From NCBI RefSeq assembly GCF_030413595.1, contig NZ_CP129238.1, positions 868,001 through 932,000 on the forward strand: a DNA stretch of 64,000 nt. The letters are read 5' to 3'. This stretch comes from Planococcus liqunii (GTDB taxonomy: Bacteria > Bacillota > Bacilli > Bacillales_A > Planococcaceae). The notes under the pieces were generated by a model that saw only the letters and a list, made by a program, of their open reading frames with translations, was not told the DNA's origin and did no database searches. A program made the translations under genes and the position numbers. Every line of letters begins with the position of its first letter. Within the stretch, counting starts at the first letter, position 1. Positions 2,808 to 38,947 of the stretch are shown one piece after another.

Positions 2808-3788
2808 TTATTTTATTTCTATTGATACGGAAGAAGCATCCACCGGACTACCTTCATCTTCAAAGTTCTCAACATACGTAATGGTTGGAATGATGGTTAC
2901 AGAAGAAGCTGCCGGATCCATGGCTTCAAAGGTGAATTGTTGCCGGGACTCGTTGCCGGTTCCAAACCGCATAGGATAGATATTTCCGAGGTCGTCTTTC
3001 AATTGCCAATCAGTCATATAGTGATTTTCATCAATTTCGTCTTTCGACAGCGTCATCACGGTGGACAGTTTCGTTAACTTCAGTTTATCCAAAGCATAGC
3101 TGCCGCCTTCAAAGAAAATCTCTTTGCCGATTGGCACCTTTTCGCTGTCAATGGCTTTGAGTTTAAACTCAAATGCCCAATCTCCAGCTACGCGTGTGCC
3201 GGTTTCCATATCTTCGAAAGCCTCGGGTTTCCAAGAAAGTTTCAAGGTGCTGGGCGGACCGAAAAAGAAATCCGGAGCCATCGTGATCATGCCGGCATAA
3301 GTTGTATCATCCACTTTCTCCATGGCGGTGGCAGAGCCTGAACCGCCGGCACCAGATGCTTCCAGCAGGCCGCTTGCGTTAGGGAACTCACCCAGGTCTT
3401 TTTCGGTCTTCAATGCAAAACTGATGGTGACCGATGTGCCGTCGTAAACGGCTTCTTCGATAGCTACCGTCGTGCCATTGCTTGTCTTTGCCAATCCGAT
3501 CGGCTGGGCCATTTCACTGAAATGATTGAAAATCAATTCGTCTCCATCAAAATAGGATACGATATTCTGCAAAACCGGAATCTGGGAAGCAAGTGAAGGA
3601 AAAGCGATCGTTGCTGTAGCAGCGGATGCCAGAAAAATACCGGCTGCAAGTGCGAGTTTGGCAAACCATGGGGATTTGCGCTTTTTGCCGAGGAGGCTTT
3701 TGTGCATCTGCTTTTTTTCAGAGCTGGAAACTTCAGCTTCCGGAAAGTCTTCAATATCGGTCATCAGCCATTTCTTTACGTCACTCAT
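2808..3788 (-). CDS. DUF4179 anti-sigma factor-like membrane protein
   Basis: 326 residues. An acidic N-terminal cytoplasmic part of about 40 residues is followed by one hydrophobic segment (residues about 42-65, LALAAGIFLASAATATIAF) and a large extracytoplasmic domain. This layout and the sequence just after the membrane segment match DUF4179 proteins, which are usually the anti-sigma partner of an adjacent ECF sigma factor. The start overlaps the end of the sigma gene by 4 bases, so the two are translationally coupled. By inference it holds the sigma factor at the membrane until an envelope signal arrives. Ligand and release mechanism are unknown. Confidence 0.85.
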   Translation of the reverse strand: MSDVKKWLMTDIEDFPEAEVSSSEKKQMHKSLLGKKRKSPWFAKLALAAGIFLASAATATIAFPSLASQIPVLQNIVSYFDGDELIFNHFSEMAQPIGLAKTSNGTTVAIEEAVYDGTSVTISFALKTEKDLGEFPNASGLLEASGAGGSGSATAMEKVDDTTYAGMITMAPDFFFGPPSTLKLSWKPEAFEDMETGTRVAGDWAFEFKLKAIDSEKVPIGKEIFFEGGSYALDKLKLTKLSTVMTLSKDEIDENHYMTDWQLKDDLGNIYPMRFGTGNESRQQFTFEAMDPAASSVTIIPTITYVENFEDEGSPVDASSVSIEIK

Positions 3789-4339
3789 ATGAATCGCTCC
3801 TTTCGTTCCATCAAATGCCCCAGTTTCCTCTTGCCGCGGTAGAGCCGGTTTTCGACTGCAGAAAGGGTGATGCCGAGTGCTTCTGCAATTTCATTGTTTG
3901 ACAGGTCCAAATAATACCGCATCAAAAACAATTCACGGTCTGCTTCCGGCAGTTGATGGAGCCGGACCAGCATTTCCTCGCGTGATTCGTTCTTCAGGAC
4001 GGCTTCTTCCGTGGAGTGCCGGCCGCCGCTTGCCACATTCTCATCGGTCAATGTTTCCCGCAGCTGCTGTTTTGTCTCCCGGCGATACCGGTCGATTGCT
4101 TTGTATTTGGCAACCATGCCAGCCCATTTGCGGAAATCCTCATTGCTGCCTTCAAACTGGTGGGATTTTTGCCAAATCGTCAGGAATACATCGTTCAGGC
4201 ATTCTTCTGCCGCTTGTTTTCCACAGCTTTTGGCTAGAATATGCTGGCAAATCCCTTTGAGAAAAGGCATGTATGTATCAATCAAAAATGCCAAGGCTTC
4301 TTCATCCCGCCGCTTTAACCGACCGATAAAATTCTCCAC
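3785..4339 (-). CDS. ECF-type RNA polymerase sigma factor
   Basis: 184 residues, the normal size for an ECF sigma factor. Region 2 spans about residues 10-85 (AAEECLNDVFLTIWQ, then KYKAIDRYRR). Region 4 spans about 120-175 (LPEADRELFLMRYY, then NNEIAEALGITLSAVENRL, the -35-binding helix-turn-helix). The start is a GTG with GGGAGGG seven bases upstream. It forms a two-gene operon with the DUF4179 protein downstream. In this family the sigma factor commonly drives its own promoter, but I could not identify a convincing ECF-type promoter upstream. Confidence 0.92.
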   Translation of the reverse strand: MENFIGRLKRRDEEALAFLIDTYMPFLKGICQHILAKSCGKQAAEECLNDVFLTIWQKSHQFEGSNEDFRKWAGMVAKYKAIDRYRRETKQQLRETLTDENVASGGRHSTEEAVLKNESREEMLVRLHQLPEADRELFLMRYYLDLSNNEIAEALGITLSAVENRLYRGKRKLGHLMERKERFI

Positions 4340-9042: not shown

Positions 9043-9891
9043 TTACTCTTTCTCAAGCGGCTGAGTCACATCGGCACCCAGGAATTTAGTGGAGATTTCT
9101 TTAAGCGTTCCGTCAGCCAGCAATTCTTCAAGCGCAGCATCGAGTTTTTCTTTCAGTTCTGGACTGTCTTTCGGCATAACGATGGCACTGCTGCTGAAGG
9201 AGAACTTAACGCCTTCAGCCAGTTTCAAGCCGGGCTTGTCATACTGCTCAAGTGAGCGCATCAATACCAGGTAATCGTTCAGCGTCGCATCCACGCGGCC
9301 ATTGACGATTTCCGGAAGAACTGTATCAGAACCGGTATAAACAATCACTTCAGCTCCTTGTTCCTGGGCAAATTTCGAATAGTTGCTTGTAGCAGAACCG
9401 CCGACTTTTTTGCCTTTCAAATCTTCCACTGATTCAATGCCGGAGTTGTCGCTTTCACGTACAATGGCAGAACCGTAGGAATGTTTCACCGGAACCGTGA
9501 AATCGAATTTTTCTTTGCGTTCATCTGTAATGGCGAAATCATTGGCCGCAATATCAATTTGGCCATTGCGAAGCGCCGGAAGCAAGCCATCGAATTCCAT
9601 TTCTTTGAACTCAACTTCAAGCCCAAGTTTCTCGCCTAGAGCACGGGCAACTTCCACATCATACCCAGTCAATTCTTTCGTTGTTTCATCATGATATGTA
9701 ATCGGATAATAAAGGCCTTCTGTTCCGACAACGATTTTGCCGGCTTCTTCGATGCGCTCCCACGCGTTTTGTTCTTTGTTTTCTGATGAGGCTGCTGCTT
9801 CGTTCGATGTTTCTTTGCTGCCGCATGCGGCCAACAAGATAACGGCTGCCAGAACTGCCAGCAACAATAAAAGATGTTTCGTGTTTTTCAT
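9043..9891 (-). CDS. polar amino-acid ABC transporter, substrate-binding lipoprotein
   Basis: 282 residues from the ATG at 9891, which has AAGGAAGG upstream; a frame extension of 24 residues further upstream has no signal-peptide logic. The signal peptide ends in the lipobox LAAC with the modified cysteine at 23. The mature part is a family-3 solute-binding fold (IVVGTEGLYYPITYHDE, then LTGYDVEVARALGEKLG, then NGQIDIAANDFAITDERKE). It captures the ligand outside the membrane and delivers it to the permease. It is the first gene after the SAM riboswitch. Confidence 0.93.
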   Translation of the reverse strand: MKNTKHLLLLLAVLAAVILLAACGSKETSNEAAASSENKEQNAWERIEEAGKIVVGTEGLYYPITYHDETTKELTGYDVEVARALGEKLGLEVEFKEMEFDGLLPALRNGQIDIAANDFAITDERKEKFDFTVPVKHSYGSAIVRESDNSGIESVEDLKGKKVGGSATSNYSKFAQEQGAEVIVYTGSDTVLPEIVNGRVDATLNDYLVLMRSLEQYDKPGLKLAEGVKFSFSSSAIVMPKDSPELKEKLDAALEELLADGTLKEISTKFLGADVTQPLEKE

Positions 9892-9965
9892 AAATTTTGC
9901 ACCTTCCTTTTCTATTGGTTTACTTGGTTTTAAGTTAATAGAACTGTTCCAACATGAAGGCAAAC

Positions 9966-10132
9966 AAAAAGCCTCTTCTATAAGAAGAGGCAGGCATGTG
10001 AAAACACATTGAAATTCCGGCTCTTCTTATCTCTCAAGCTAAAAAAGCTTGTTGGATTTGGCACAGTGCTCTGGTTGCGAGCCCGCTGCCGAGGTTTCGT
10101 AGGGCCAATCCCTCCACCTCTCATGATAAGAA
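9966..10132 (-). ncRNA. SAM-I (S-box) riboswitch with terminator
   Basis: Read on the minus strand from 10132, the leader starts TTCTTATCATGAGAGGTGG, continues AGGGATTGGCCCTACGAAAC and CTCGGCAGC, and closes P1 with GAGATAAGAAGAG at about 10023-10035. This is the S-box core: kink-turn, conserved GGCCC, and the P3/P4 elements. The expression platform is a terminator hairpin (GCCTCTTCT/AGAAGAGGC, 9971-9991) with a T run at 9966-9970. S-boxes end transcription when S-adenosylmethionine is plentiful, so the importer downstream should be made when methionine is short. Confidence 0.95.
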
Positions 10133-32424: not shown

Positions 32425-33114
32425 ATGTTCAAAATCATGATAGTTGAAGACGATGAGACGATTGCCGGCATACTGAAGAAAGAACTGCAGAAATGGAATT
32501 ACGAAGCCTTTGCAGTAGAGGATTTTAACGGTGTGCTTGATGTGTTCAAAGAACAGGCGCCGCAATTGATCTTGCTGGATATCCAATTGCCTTCGTTCAA
32601 TGGCTATTACTGGTGCCAGGAAATCCGGAAATTGTCTCAAGTGCCGATTATTTTCATTTCTTCTCGGAATGAAAATTTGGATATCGTCATGGCCATTCAA
32701 ATGGGAGCCGACGATTTCATCTCAAAACCATTCGATTTAACCGTTGCTATTGCCAAAACACAGGCGTTGTTGAGAAGAACATATGATTTTAATGAAGCAG
32801 ATAACTTTCTAAACTTTAATCGTACAGTTTTAAAGCCGGGTGAATCGAAGCTCTATTACGAAAAGCGGGAAGTGGATTTAACTCGTACAGAACTGAAAAT
32901 CCTTGAACTGTTGTTTCACCAAAAGGGAAAGTATGTTACGCGGGAAGAAATTATGGTCAAGCTATGGGAGGACGAATCGTTCATTGATGACAATACCTTG
33001 GCTGTGAATGTGGCGCGACTGCGAAAAAAGCTGGCAAAGGCAGAACTGGCCGACTTTATTGTGACTAAAAAAGGGGTTGGGTATGCACTAAACAAGGAGG
33101 CAGCCCATGCGTAG
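32425..33114 (+). CDS. bceR-like: Bce-type response regulator
   Basis: 229 residues, OmpR/PhoB class. The receiver domain has the acidic pocket VEDDE (8-12), the phospho-acceptor Asp52 in LILLDIQLPS, and KPFD. The winged-helix domain (about 130-225) has LTRTELKILELLFHQKGKYV and a recognition helix NTLAVNVARLRKKL. The partner kinase overlaps by 8 bases and is of the intramembrane-sensing type, which together with the transporter at 36.2-38.9 kb places this in the BceRS family for cell-wall antibiotic sensing. Confidence 0.9.
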   Translation: MFKIMIVEDDETIAGILKKELQKWNYEAFAVEDFNGVLDVFKEQAPQLILLDIQLPSFNGYYWCQEIRKLSQVPIIFISSRNENLDIVMAIQMGADDFISKPFDLTVAIAKTQALLRRTYDFNEADNFLNFNRTVLKPGESKLYYEKREVDLTRTELKILELLFHQKGKYVTREEIMVKLWEDESFIDDNTLAVNVARLRKKLAKAELADFIVTKKGVGYALNKEAAHA

Positions 33115-34123
33115 TTTTTGGGGCAGTGCTGTTTTAAATAACTTCTTGCAGGCCATACGTCATCAAGTATTTGTTTTTGCTGGGATGGCTGTCATATTCG
33201 GTTTGATTTTTGTGTTGGGCCGCCTGCCCCTCGACCTTTTTCTCTATACTATGGAGTTATCGCTGTTCTTGTTTACTGTGTTTTTGCTTGTCCAGTATAT
33301 TCGATATACAAAGCGCTACGAGAGATTGCAGGAACTCCAGACAGCAAACAGCGACAAAGTGGAAAAGCTTTTAGAAAGTGTGGATCCTGCTGACAAATTA
33401 TACATAGAAAAATTAGCGGCAGTGATGAGGGAACAGCGTGAAGCAGAAACAGCCTATGCAGACCGGCAAACCAATCAACTGGATTATTTCACTTTATGGC
33501 TGCATCAAATCAAGACGCCGATTTCTGCGATCAGTTTGCTGAACCAAAGTTCCAGCGGGAAAGAGGCAAGGCAGATTTCACAGGAATTGCTTAGGCTAGA
33601 GGATTATACCCATATGGCATTAAATTATGTGAAGCTGGAAGAACCGGGTTCTGAACTTGATTTGAGCCAGGTGGACCTTGATGGTGTTATTAAAAAAGCT
33701 CTCAAAAAATATTCTATTTTGTTTATCTACAACGGCATTAAATTAGAATACGAACCGCTTCAGATGACTGTTTTATCCGATGAAAAATGGCTGCAAAATT
33801 TGCTTGAACAGTTGATATCCAACAGCTTGAAATACACGCCAAACGGCAAAATCTCCATTTACAAAGATTCAGAGAAAGAAGGAAGGCTGATCATTGAAGA
33901 TACGGGCATCGGCATTCGCCCTGAAGATTTGCCGAAGATTTTCAACAAGGGCTATTCAGGTTTCAATGGCCGTCTTTATGAAAAATCGACGGGACTAGGA
34001 TTGTTTCTCAGCAGAAAAATCTGTGAACGGTTGGGGTATAAGCTCGATATTCAGTCGGAACTAGGCAAAGGAACAAAGGTGCTGATCGATCTGTCGAGAG
34101 AGGAATTACGGGTATTTGATTGA
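33107..34123 (+). CDS. bceS-like: Bce-type intramembrane-sensing histidine kinase
   Basis: 338 residues. Two membrane helices (about 22-40 and 44-66) with only a few residues between them leave no extracellular sensor, the hallmark of BceS-type kinases, which learn of the antibiotic through the BceAB transporter. The H box is LWLHQIKTPISAI with His133. The ATPase domain shows LISNSLKYTPNGK (N box), IIEDTGIGI (G1) and STGLGLFLSRKICE (G2). It overlaps the response regulator gene by 8 bases. No transporter gene follows directly, unlike the usual bceRSAB order. Confidence 0.9.
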   Translation: MRSFWGSAVLNNFLQAIRHQVFVFAGMAVIFGLIFVLGRLPLDLFLYTMELSLFLFTVFLLVQYIRYTKRYERLQELQTANSDKVEKLLESVDPADKLYIEKLAAVMREQREAETAYADRQTNQLDYFTLWLHQIKTPISAISLLNQSSSGKEARQISQELLRLEDYTHMALNYVKLEEPGSELDLSQVDLDGVIKKALKKYSILFIYNGIKLEYEPLQMTVLSDEKWLQNLLEQLISNSLKYTPNGKISIYKDSEKEGRLIIEDTGIGIRPEDLPKIFNKGYSGFNGRLYEKSTGLGLFLSRKICERLGYKLDIQSELGKGTKVLIDLSREELRVFD

Positions 34124-34259
34124 GGAACGAGAATGCAGTTGGATAAAGAGAAAAGAACCAAAAACAGAAAAACGATTGGTGATTTTAGTAGAAAGTCGGA
34201 TGAAACTTAAAAAACACGAACTATAAATAGATAATAAGATATAAATGTTCGTTTTTGTG

Positions 34260-34288
34260 TTGACTCCCTGTTGGGTGCTTGTTATATT
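34260..34288 (+). promoter_or_regulatory. sigma-A promoter of the riboswitch transcript
   Basis: TTGACT (34260-34265), 17-bp spacer, TATATT (34283-34288). Transcription would start about 20 bp before the purine aptamer. Confidence 0.8.
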
Positions 34289-34312
34289 AGCAAAGTGTTA
34301 AAAATGAATAAT

Positions 34313-34494
34313 AATTCTCGTATATGCCCGGTAATATGGTCCGGGCGTTTCTACCAAGTTCCCAAAAAATGAACTGGACTACGGGTTGAAGTATTTGGCG
34401 ATGGCGATTTTAACCGACTATTGGTTTGCCTCGTTCACACTTTAACTTTGCAGGTCCAGAAGGTTAGCGCAAGCTAACTTCTCTGGCTTTTTTT
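34313..34494 (+). ncRNA. purine riboswitch, guanine type, with terminator
   Basis: The aptamer begins TTCTCGTATAT; P2 is GCCCGG/CCGGGC with the loop TAATATGGT; the joining segment is GTTTCTACC; P3 is CAAGTTC/GAACTGG; the P1 side closes with GGACTACGG. The base that selects the ligand is C (ACTACG rather than ATTACG), which in known purine riboswitches gives guanine/hypoxanthine recognition. A terminator (CCAGAAGGTTAGC/GCTAACTTCTCTGG with T7, 34456-34494) follows. Guanine binding should switch off the nucleosidase-like gene downstream. Confidence 0.93.
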
Positions 34495-34540
34495 GTGTGG
34501 ACAGCCGTGGGGAGGACTTAACAACTAGGAGGAAGACAGC

Positions 34541-35413
34541 ATGAGAAAAGTGAAAACCTATCAAATTTGGGTACTGGCAATGGCGATCTTGCTAATTCTT
34601 GCAGGATGCAGTTCAACAGGCGAAACAGAAGCGAAAGAAAAACCGCAACGTCCGATTTTAATTCAAGGGCCAATGCCGATTGAAGCGGAAAAGTTTGCTG
34701 AACGTTTGGAAAATGTGAAAGTAGAAGAAGCAGGGTCGACCTTTGAATTTTACATTGGGACAGTGGAAGGGTATCCGGTGATTGTAACCAAGACAGGGAA
34801 AGGGACGGCAAATACCGGTGCCGCAACTGCATTGGCCATTGAAAAATACAATCCCGCAGCAATCATCAACCAAGGAACATCAGGCGGACACGATCCAGCA
34901 CTGAACGTCTTTGATATTGTGCTTGGCGAACGTTCTGTAAATATAGGAGCTTTGAAAACAGGGGATTTAGCAAAAGGTGAAGGCATCGAGCCAACGGAAT
35001 GGAAGCCGATGGACTTGATGGCTTCAGAAGGCAGTGCCGGAGAAGATCCGGATGCTGAAAATATCCGTTACTATGAAGGCGACAAAGAATTATTGGCTGC
35101 AGCTAATGCAGTAAAAGATACGCATACTAAAGGGAAAGTTGTAGAAGGAACAATCGGTTCCGCTGATTTCTGGAACAATGAAGTGGACCGCATCAATTGG
35201 ATCCATGAGAAATATGGCACCTCTGTTGAAGAAATGGAAACTGCATCCGCTGCGCAAATTTCTGCAGCATACGATATTCCATTCCTCGGCATTCGCATTT
35301 TATCAAATAATAAAACAAACGACGGTGCTTACAATCCGGATACAGCAGCAGCGAATCAGGATTATGTGTTTGAAGTGGTAAAAGAATACATTTCCAGTCT
35401 TTCAAGCAAGTAA
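34541..35413 (+). CDS. extracytoplasmic nucleosidase-like lipoprotein (MTA/SAH nucleosidase fold)
   Basis: 290 residues. A lipoprotein signal peptide ends LAGC (Cys23). The rest is the PNP/MTAN fold: LIQGPMPIEAEKF, with Glu48 at the position of MTAN Glu12; NQGTSGG; GSADFWN; VEEMETASAAQ with Glu233 at catalytic Glu174; and RILSNNK, where MTAN has Ser-Asp and this protein Ser255-Asn256. It thus keeps the ribose and catalytic glutamates but lacks the Asp that protonates adenine N7; Asn here is typical of 6-oxopurine phosphorylases. With the guanine riboswitch upstream, the likely role is release of guanine or hypoxanthine from nucleosides outside the cell. Database names for such proteins as MTA/SAH nucleosidase may be misleading. 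Confidence 0.82.
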   Translation: MRKVKTYQIWVLAMAILLILAGCSSTGETEAKEKPQRPILIQGPMPIEAEKFAERLENVKVEEAGSTFEFYIGTVEGYPVIVTKTGKGTANTGAATALAIEKYNPAAIINQGTSGGHDPALNVFDIVLGERSVNIGALKTGDLAKGEGIEPTEWKPMDLMASEGSAGEDPDAENIRYYEGDKELLAAANAVKDTHTKGKVVEGTIGSADFWNNEVDRINWIHEKYGTSVEEMETASAAQISAAYDIPFLGIRILSNNKTNDGAYNPDTAAANQDYVFEVVKEYISSLSSK

Positions 35414-36210: not shown

Positions 36211-36978
36211 ATGGCCTTATTAGAAATTAAGAATCTGAAAAAAGTATATACGGCTCGTTTTTCCAACCAGCAAACCGAAGCACTATCGACGGTCAACTTC
36301 TCAGTGAAAAAAGGCGAGTTCGTCTCCATCATGGGCGAGTCGGGTTCCGGGAAAACGACGCTTCTGAATATCATTTCGACTTTGGACGAGGCGACTGGCG
36401 GAGAAGTTTATCTCGAAGGTAAGCCCCTATCCAACATTAAAGACAAAGAAATATCCGCTTTCCGCCGGAACACCTTGGGCTTTGTGTTCCAGGACTTTAA
36501 TTTGCTGGATAATTTTACAATCAAAGACAACGTTCTGCTGCCGCTCGTGCTGTCAAAAACTCCGGTAGCGGAAATGGAAGAGCGGCTGATCCCCATTGTC
36601 CGCAAGCTTGGAATTGAAGCCCATATCAACAAATACCCATATGAAGTTTCAGGCGGACAAAAGCAGCGGGTAGCTGTGGCGCGGGCATTGATCACACAAC
36701 CGAAAATCATTCTGGCAGACGAACCGACCGGTGCGCTCGATTCGAAGGCTTCACAAAACTTAATGGAAATATTAAAGGGGATCAATGAAACAGGCCAGAC
36801 GATTTTGATGGTCACACACAGTACGCGCGCAGCAAGTTTTTCAAGCCGGGTCTTATTCATCCGCGATGGATCCGTCTACCACGAAATTTACCGCGGCGAG
36901 CAGACTTCGGACGAATTCATGGAGCGCATTTCCCAATCATTGACGGTGTTGTCGAGCCGGGGTGGAAAAGATGAATAG
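36211..36978 (+). CDS. bceA-like: Bce-type ABC transporter, ATP-binding protein
   Basis: 255 residues. Walker A GESGSGKTT (42-50), signature VSGGQKQRVAVARAL, Walker B IILADEPTGALDSKA and the switch His in VTHSTRAA are intact. The opening ALLEIKNLKKVYTARF and the position of the gene before a large FtsX-type permease identify the Peptide-7 exporter family, which frees cell-wall precursors from antibiotics such as bacitracin and signals to BceS. AAGGAGGGG precedes the ATG; its end overlaps the permease gene by 17 bases. Confidence 0.93.
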   Translation: MALLEIKNLKKVYTARFSNQQTEALSTVNFSVKKGEFVSIMGESGSGKTTLLNIISTLDEATGGEVYLEGKPLSNIKDKEISAFRRNTLGFVFQDFNLLDNFTIKDNVLLPLVLSKTPVAEMEERLIPIVRKLGIEAHINKYPYEVSGGQKQRVAVARALITQPKIILADEPTGALDSKASQNLMEILKGINETGQTILMVTHSTRAASFSSRVLFIRDGSVYHEIYRGEQTSDEFMERISQSLTVLSSRGGKDE

Positions 36979-38947
36979 CCGCTTTTTCATTTCTTTGGCC
37001 GTTCGCAACATCAAATCGAACCAGCAACTGTATATGCCTTATTTGCTGTCGTCGACCGCGATTATCACGATGTTCTATTTGATGTCTTCTCTTTTAACGA
37101 ATAAATTCGTCCAGGAACGTTCAAGTGTGTTGCCGACGCTTTTTGCAATGGGGACGATTGTCATTGGAATTTTTTCGTTTATCTTTATTTTGTATATCAA
37201 TAGTTTTTTGATCAAAAGAAGAAAAAAGGAGATCGGCCTCTACGGAATACTGGGCTTGGAGAAAAAGCATGTGGCGAAAATCTTGTTTTTTGAGACGCTC
37301 ATCACGACGTTTGTGAGCATTGCCGGAGCGCTGATTTTAGGGCAGATTTTTGGGCGCTTGTTTTTCATGCTGCTGAATTATCTGCTCCGTTTGCCGACAA
37401 ATATCAATTATTCGACAAGCCCGATGACGGCTTTGGTCACGGCAGGCTTGTTCGCTGGAGTTTTTGCGATTACCTATCTGTACAACGTCAGCCAGTTTAC
37501 ATTCGCCAATCCGATTAAATTGTTGAAAGGCAAAAAAGAAGGGGAAAAAGAACCGAAAGGATCGATTCTCCTCTTTGTCTTGTCTATCGTTTTGATAGGT
37601 TGGGGCTACGGCATTTCGCTGACAATTGCCGACCCGCTCAGCGCGATTTCAAAGTTTTTCCTTGCAGTCCTGCTGGTTATTATGGGAACCTATTTACTGT
37701 TTATCACGGGCTCGATTTATATTTTGAAGGCGCTGAAGAAAAACAAACGGATCTACTATCGGCCGGGGCCGTTCATCTCCATTTCAGGCATGTTGTACCG
37801 GATGAAGCAAAATGCGGTGGGGTTAGCGAATATCTGTATTTTGGCTTCGATGGTGATCATTGCCGTGTCGACAACAGTCACTATTTTTGTAGGGACAGAA
37901 GAAACATTGGAAAATCGTTTTCCGAATGAGAACAATATGACCCTTAACGGGACAGACTTATCACAGGAAGAGCTGAATACACAATTTGTGGGGCTTCAGG
38001 GCAAGTTCCGTGAAGAAGCACAGAAAATGGAGCTTAAAGTGACAGACATGGAAAGTTATCGCTACTTGACTGTGTTTGGTAATTTGGAAGGCGATCGCCT
38101 CGTATTTGAAGAAGGGTTCCCGGCAGCCAATGCCCCTTTATATATCCAGGTGCTCTTATTGGAAGACTTTAATGAAATGGCTGGAAAACAGGTCGAGCTT
38201 TCAGAAGGCGAAGCGCTGTACTACCATTCAGAGGGAGCTCTCAATCAGCAGAATATTGTAATCGGGGATCAGAAGTTCAATTTGAAGGAAGCCGACTACG
38301 ATTTTGAAGGCGAAGCGGCAATTGTCACGACAATGGTTCTGATTGTTCCTGAACTTTCCCAGATCGAAATGATTTCGGAAATTAATAAGAAGGAACTTCC
38401 GCAGGGCAACCCAGCGAGCATTGATGCCTTCATCGGCTGGAATACAGACGGGACCAATGCGCAAAAGAAAGCATTTGGCGAGCAGATGAAACAGTTATCG
38501 TTCGGTTCCGAATCGCTCAGTTTCGAATCCAGAGAGGCATTTCGGGAGGAATGGTACAGCATGAATGGCGGGTTCCTGTTTCTCGGGATATTCCTTGGAT
38601 TGCTGTTTATGATCGGCACAGTCTTGATCACTTATTTCAAGCAAGTATCGGAAGGCTTTGATGACCGGGAGAAATTCCAAATCATGCAAAAAGTAGGCCT
38701 CGACAAAGACATGATCCACGAATCGACCCGTTCACAAATTGTCTGGATGTTCCTGCTGCCAATCGTCACAGCTACCATCCATGTCATTTTTGCCTATCCC
38801 ATTGTCCGCAAAATGCTGACGGTGTTCGGTGTGACGAGTGAAATCACCTGGCTGTTGTCGTTCACAGGAGTCGTAATTGCATTCAGCGCCATTTACTGGA
38901 TGATTTACCGCATCACTTCAAGAGTCTATTACAGTATTGTGAAATAA
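36962..38947 (+). CDS. bceB-like: Bce-type ABC transporter, permease
   Basis: 661 residues, ten predicted membrane helices. The N-terminal FISLAVRNIKSNQQLYMPYL, the RRKKEIGLYGILGLEK FtsX-like segment and the long extracellular domain (about residues 310-530) between helices VII and VIII are diagnostic for BceB. That large domain is thought to contact the peptide antibiotic or its lipid target. An alternative start a few codons downstream (ATGAATAGC at 36971) would have the Shine-Dalgarno GGGGTGG and may be the true one. Confidence 0.93.
   Translation: MEKMNSRFFISLAVRNIKSNQQLYMPYLLSSTAIITMFYLMSSLLTNKFVQERSSVLPTLFAMGTIVIGIFSFIFILYINSFLIKRRKKEIGLYGILGLEKKHVAKILFFETLITTFVSIAGALILGQIFGRLFFMLLNYLLRLPTNINYSTSPMTALVTAGLFAGVFAITYLYNVSQFTFANPIKLLKGKKEGEKEPKGSILLFVLSIVLIGWGYGISLTIADPLSAISKFFLAVLLVIMGTYLLFITGSIYILKALKKNKRIYYRPGPFISISGMLYRMKQNAVGLANICILASMVIIAVSTTVTIFVGTEETLENRFPNENNMTLNGTDLSQEELNTQFVGLQGKFREEAQKMELKVTDMESYRYLTVFGNLEGDRLVFEEGFPAANAPLYIQVLLLEDFNEMAGKQVELSEGEALYYHSEGALNQQNIVIGDQKFNLKEADYDFEGEAAIVTTMVLIVPELSQIEMISEINKKELPQGNPASIDAFIGWNTDGTNAQKKAFGEQMKQLSFGSESLSFESREAFREEWYSMNGGFLFLGIFLGLLFMIGTVLITYFKQVSEGFDDREKFQIMQKVGLDKDMIHESTRSQIVWMFLLPIVTATIHVIFAYPIVRKMLTVFGVTSEITWLLSFTGVVIAFSAIYWMIYRITSRVYYSIVK

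Follow-up and report, generated by a model that had tools for sequence, protein, structure and literature searches.

Three components of the system described here are already known: the riboswitch class, the protein fold and a solved relative. The closest solved relatives are structures of an enzyme from Aeromonas hydrophila (PDB 5b7g, 5b7n, 5b7p and 5b7q; 42% identity). The nearest published idea (PMC9295807) is the 2'-deoxyguanosine-III (2'-dG-III) riboswitch, a rare variant comprising five aptamers, predicted to act as an ON switch and associated with purine nucleoside hydrolase genes. The locus analysed here lies in a 64,000-nucleotide stretch of the Planococcus liqunii genome (contig NZ_CP129238.1, positions 868,001 to 932,000), hereafter the window. 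It consists of a guanine-type purine riboswitch aptamer (34298–34401, plus strand) followed by a gene (34541–35413, plus strand) encoding a predicted exported lipoprotein of 290 amino acids (aa) with the fold of 5'-methylthioadenosine (MTA)/S-adenosylhomocysteine (SAH) nucleosidase (MTAN). We propose that riboswitch and gene probably constitute a self-contained purine-scavenging module, an exported 6-oxopurine nucleosidase that is on when guanine is short.

The aptamer matches Rfam RF00167 with 75 bits against a gathering score of 37. Folding pairs 34317–34322 with 34380–34385 as P1, and the specificity base at 34379 (position 74 in the usual numbering) is C, as the original prediction of a purine-riboswitch core with C at this position had stated. 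For comparison, the best 80 of 481 relatives found in a scan of genome contigs (67–100% identity) were taken as homologous loci. A covariance model trained on ten aptamer sequences detected one aptamer upstream of the nucleosidase gene in 75 of them, the count used here; regular expressions gave 59 (strict) or 72 (loose, some of them spurious). Five of the 75 matches are not independent of the model, whose genomes overlap the 80 loci: L022 and L023 have the window's aptamer, and L039, L059 and L080 are the genomes of L008, L010 and L011. The specificity position is C in all 75 homologous aptamers, and U occupies position 51 in 74 of them. An adenine-type switch was rejected, since U stands at the specificity position in none of the 75; the adenine-binding aptamer named in the original prediction as the contrary outcome thus has no counterpart at the sequence level. 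A chance match was likewise rejected, given the aptamers upstream of the gene in 75 of 80 loci, and so was the 2'-dG-III variant, because its hallmark, three joining regions that all deviate from the guanine consensus, is missing: the joining-region letters here are those of the genome's own xpt, guaA and purE aptamers. From these features we infer that guanine would be the ligand. When the 75 aptamers are aligned by fitting them to the model, both-sided changes occur in 4 of 17 pairs, a number reached by 0 of 500 shuffles; the count of further pair types is not above that of the shuffles (219/500), and 37 of 73 rows leave the outermost P2 pair unformed.

The protein contains PF01048 as its single domain (141 bits), and a lipobox, LAGC, with Cys23 (34598–34609, plus strand) lies near its N-terminus. 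Both catalytic glutamates of MTAN are kept: Glu48 (34682–34684, plus strand; MTAN Glu12) in 88 of 88 alignment rows and Glu233 (35237–35239, plus strand; MTAN Glu174) in 87 of 88. At the position of MTAN Asp197 the protein has Asn256 (35306–35308, plus strand), and Asn is found there in all 87 family rows and in all 80 homologous loci, leaving no row in which another Asp fills the position. A second base-site position is occupied by Trp211-Asn212 (35171–35176, plus strand), again in 87 of 87 family rows and 80 of 80 loci; the aligned residues are Phe-Met in the genome's own MTAN and, in the E. coli MTAN numbering, Phe151-Ile152. Furthermore, the alignment shows that the stretch RHHDVDVTVFGY of the genome's own MTAN is replaced in the nucleosidase by a longer, unlike stretch. 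These findings agree with the original description of an MTAN/phosphorylase-fold lipoprotein that retains both glutamates and carries Asn256 for Asp197. Tabulated against riboswitch type, as the prediction had suggested, the relatives combine Asn (80/80) with a C-type aptamer (75/80). The lipobox is present in 76 of the 79 homologous open reading frames (ORFs) that hold the anchoring motif, and the nucleosidase is accordingly predicted to reside outside the cell, anchored by a lipid. In L066, L075, L094 and L119 the lipobox Cys is replaced (LAGL, LAGF, LVGW), and these proteins are perhaps secreted or membrane-anchored instead.

Independent families bear on the meaning of this Asn. Futalosine hydrolases, whose leaving base is hypoxanthine, have Asn at the base site in all 14 sequences above the family cut-off (149 genomes searched), and Asp is found there in the genome's own MTAN and in both of its DeoD phosphorylases. 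The window protein is not itself a futalosine hydrolase by profile (TIGR03664, 63.5 bits against a cut-off of 124.7). Structures of Asp-to-Asn mutants of MTAN from E. coli (1z5o) and Helicobacter pylori (4p54, 4oy3) are titled MTA or SAH complexes, as expected if Asn cannot support the loss of adenine. In trimeric phosphorylases, N243D is reported to add adenosine to guanosine and inosine (PMC6274182). By analogy, specificity for 6-oxopurine bases is predicted for the nucleosidase, and the proposal that it frees a 6-oxopurine is supported by genomics and by these parallels.

The leader between aptamer and gene can be folded into two alternative structures. When RNA prefixes are folded up to 34470 and up to 34482, both contain an antiterminator in which 34374–34380 pairs with 34453–34459 and 34383–34392 with 34439–34448 (5' side 34374–34392, 3' side 34439–34459, plus strand). 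The first of these segments comprises the P3 end, J3/1 with the specificity C and the first base of the P1 3' strand, the second the remainder of the P1 3' strand and beyond, and 34453–34459 reaches the 5' arm of an intrinsic terminator (34456–34494, plus strand; 5' arm from 34456, 3' arm 34473–34486, T run 34488–34494). A consensus terminator scan did not list this terminator because its stem has a bulge. When the prefix is extended to 34494, the complete terminator displaces the first antiterminator helix and part of the second stays; when the aptamer is enforced in folding, the terminator forms. A hairpin of -8 kcal/mol or lower ahead of a T run of at least 5 is present in 70 of the 75 homologous leaders, and in 56 of these 75 the strand of aptamer-alignment columns 74–79 has a full complement downstream, compared with 139 of 750 shuffles. 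A looser antiterminator test, requiring a helix of 9 pairs or more, accepted 72 of 75 leaders but also 317 of 750 shuffles. The prefix folds and the aptamer-enforced fold make an OFF switch decided during transcription the likelier design in silico, in keeping with the repression by guanine originally proposed.

The 3.96-Mb genome contains six purine riboswitches, each with C as its specificity base. Apart from the present one, they lie ahead of a Xan_ur permease gene, xpt-pbuX, guaA, purE and the gene of an inosine-uridine-type nucleoside hydrolase, behind which comes a membrane-protein-like ORF. A nucleosidase acting outside fits beside this hydrolase and the base permeases. A canonical MTAN is also encoded (357 bits); therefore, methionine salvage does not need the exported nucleosidase. 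One Bmp-type nucleoside-binding protein is present in the genome. In the mechanism we propose, low intracellular guanine would allow the antiterminator to form and the gene to be transcribed, and the product would be exported and anchored as a lipoprotein. There it would release guanine or hypoxanthine by hydrolysing 6-oxopurine nucleosides present outside the cell, namely guanosine, inosine and perhaps the deoxy forms of these, and the freed bases would be imported by permeases of the same regulon. Plentiful guanine would then bind the aptamer, the antiterminator strand would be held within it, the terminator would form and expression would stop.

Several observations weigh against a guanine-controlled 6-oxopurine nucleosidase. 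In the unconstrained full-length fold the terminator forms too, beside a shortened antiterminator; therefore, the switch would have to be kinetic. General purine genes, too, are under guanine riboswitch control, and the switch by itself therefore does not fix the base released. Among ten loci of the same family, whose aptamer counts overlap those of the 80-locus set and are not additive with them, four have the aptamer, and it is missing at three with 71–72% and at three with 40–44% identity. The class locus L117 has the aptamer and the three gammaproteobacterial plasmid loci (L120–L122) gave no aptamer match; on these sequences, the link between riboswitch and gene fades beyond the clade of the 80 loci. 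As for the base site, DeoD-type phosphorylases, which carry Asp, accept both 6-oxo- and 6-aminopurines. Consequently, Asp is not diagnostic and the original rule that Asp serves adenine and Asn serves 6-oxopurines is too simple, Asn being the more informative state in an MTAN-like fold. In addition, the E. coli DeoD variant D204N gave only traces with 8-azaguanine, for a wild-type value of about 1 (PMC6274182); therefore, Asn alone does not confer 6-oxopurine activity.

The alternative that survives best, although we regard it as unlikely, is that the protein is exported and cleaves MTA/SAH (or 5'-deoxyadenosine), with Asn still able to support the departure of adenine and the riboswitch tying the enzyme to a general purine need that salvaged adenine could meet. 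The naming of the relatives points in this direction and hence away from 6-oxopurines. The molecule name of 5b7g, 5b7n, 5b7p and 5b7q is MTA/SAH nucleosidase, 5b7p and 5b7q are titled 'Structures and functional analysis of periplasmic' MTA/SAH nucleosidase, and the named homologues among the matches listed are mostly MTA/SAH, MTA or adenosylhomocysteine nucleosidases. The Aeromonas relative, in which the Asn is native, is cited as an MTA/SAH nucleosidase in PMC6302742 and PMC6371041, and a review takes it as a periplasmic MTA nucleosidase and suggests from its structures that MTA is available outside cells. The NCBIfam MTAN profile TIGR01704 scores 78.8, just over its cut-off of 73.8; PRK05584 reaches 89.4 and stays under its cut-off of 169, and the MTA/SAH label, as judged from these scores, would be based on a marginal profile match. 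Against an enzyme for MTA or SAH stand the titles of the Asp-to-Asn MTAN mutants, the Asn kept by every one of the 87 family rows, the exchange of RHHDVDVTVFGY for an unlike and longer stretch, the absence of A-type aptamers (0 of 75), and the distance of about 24 kb to the only S-adenosylmethionine (SAM) riboswitch of the window.

Less probable still is an exported nucleosidase of broad or differently tuned specificity, acting for example on xanthosine, 2'-deoxyguanosine or modified guanine nucleosides, which would also be a form of purine salvage. Asn could in principle suit any 6-oxopurine. Two points argue against such tuning: the joining regions have the same letters as in the genome's xpt, guaA and purE aptamers, and the logic is likelier OFF, in contrast to the ON logic of the 2'-dG-III kind. 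A purine nucleoside phosphorylase, although of the same PF01048 superfamily, is very improbable and was rejected, as Glu48 and Asn110 occupy the places aligned with the arginines of L019 that presumably bind phosphate in phosphorylases, and no such Arg was found there; hydrolysis is accordingly favoured over phosphorolysis.

The proposed exported 6-oxopurine nucleosidase may extend well beyond the window. We lean, by a small measure, towards the view that the whole exported family labelled MTA/SAH, from Bacillaceae lipoproteins to the enzymes of Aeromonas (including the 5b7 structures), Shewanella, Vibrio, Photobacterium, Pantoea and Acinetobacter, consists of 6-oxopurine nucleosidases, and that in the Bacillales the gene and a guanine riboswitch of its own travel as one module among genomes and a plasmid. 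Across the 80 loci the gene neighbourhood is not conserved, and the most frequent other ORF cluster is shared by 12. The gene is patchy, being found in 11 of 121 genomes of the family and in 9 of 398 genomes of the class (partly the same genomes, and in one case a broken fragment), and gene and aptamer occur together on a Metabacillus plasmid. Because the pair is kept while its neighbours vary, the gene is patchy and a plasmid copy exists, riboswitch and gene behave, to judge from these genomes, as one movable unit. If these readings are true, a family whose relatives are read as MTA/SAH enzymes has been systematically misannotated and a widely used label would be corrected; the guanine riboswitch regulon would gain an exported salvage step, external nucleoside scavenging would be switched by the internal guanine level, and regulation and enzyme would travel together as a single unit. 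They would also offer a residue rule, that Asn in an MTAN-like fold goes with a 6-oxopurine, which futalosine hydrolases follow independently.

The covariance model found no aptamer upstream of the gene at five of the 80 loci (L028, L053, L076, L092 and L093; L076 is the genome of L014). These loci are scattered single tips of the gene tree and therefore read as separate losses; the tree holds 79 of the 80 genes and three outgroups, L101, without the anchoring motif, having been dropped, and its Aeromonas branch is too long to trust. In L093 (Allobacillus halotolerans, 3765–3900) antiterminator- and terminator-like stretches are kept and most of the aptamer is absent, which looks like a decayed switch whose guanine control should be lost. 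L028, from a contig titled uncultured Halomonas sp., has a gene 73% identical, which the tree places within the Planococcus clade, and no riboswitch match; either the gene was transferred recently and without its switch, or the contig is misbinned. In two Planococcus relatives, Rfam BsrF small RNA matches (L008:2869–2981 and L009:888–1000) lie near the purine riboswitch, a few hundred bases off and on the opposite strand. Four relatives of the exported nucleosidase (P0227, P0234, P0235 and P0237) carry an extra PF07833 domain, P0237 being named stalk domain-containing protein from Moorella naiadis, and two records named Acinetobacter phage MD-2021a (H9 and H10, 134 and 139 kb) contain an annotated nucleosidase 53% identical.

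Within the window, a sigma-70-type promoter-like site (34260–34288, plus strand; TTGACT-17-TATATT) precedes the aptamer. It is a consensus match only, with 10 of 12 positions and TG ahead of the second hexamer, and is one of three such sites in 34124–34560, where shuffles average 0.8. A Shine-Dalgarno-like AGGAGG (34527–34532, plus strand) precedes the gene. On the 5' side lies a response-regulator/kinase pair (32425–34123), and on the 3' side one reverse ORF followed by a pair (36211–38947) that reads as an ATP-binding cassette (ABC) transporter. A two-component/ABC-transporter operon as functional context was rejected because the nucleosidase gene has a promoter-like site, a riboswitch and a terminator to itself and is flanked by different genes in other genomes. 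The nucleosidase protein is identical in the loci of Planococcus chinensis and P. glaciei. The SAM riboswitch lies at 10024–10132 on the minus strand (97.5 bits); from ORF reading alone, the genes behind it look like an amino-acid-type ABC transporter (binding lipoprotein at 9043–9963, permease and ATPase).

A literature search, in which subscription journals were thinly covered, returned neither a description of a guanine riboswitch paired with an exported nucleosidase nor assays of the Aeromonas enzyme. Two things appear to be new: the conserved coupling of an ordinary guanine riboswitch to an exported Asn-type nucleosidase, and the suggestion of a misnamed family. The nucleosidase matches the A. 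hydrophila 5b7 family in sequence and fold, in the Asn and Trp-Asn of its base site and in having an export signal; the A. hydrophila relative (P0121) is gammaproteobacterial, with a signal-like N-terminus and no lipobox, whereas the window protein carries a lipobox. With canonical MTAN (MtnN/Pfs) it shares the fold and the catalytic Glu pair, and it differs in Asn for Asp197, in Trp-Asn for Phe-Ile/Met, in its predicted export and in its guanine-type riboswitch. Futalosine hydrolases (TIGR03664) have the same Asn at the base site and, in 9 aligned rows, lack the Trp-Asn motif. The 2'-dG-III riboswitch is related to guanine riboswitches and likewise controls a gene for an enzyme that cleaves purine nucleosides; in contrast, the present locus combines an ordinary guanine core and a likelier OFF logic with a PF01048 lipoprotein. 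Finally, the guanine riboswitches of xpt-pbuX, guaA, purE and the permease belong to the same aptamer class and regulon, and what sets this one apart is its target, a predicted exported nucleosidase.
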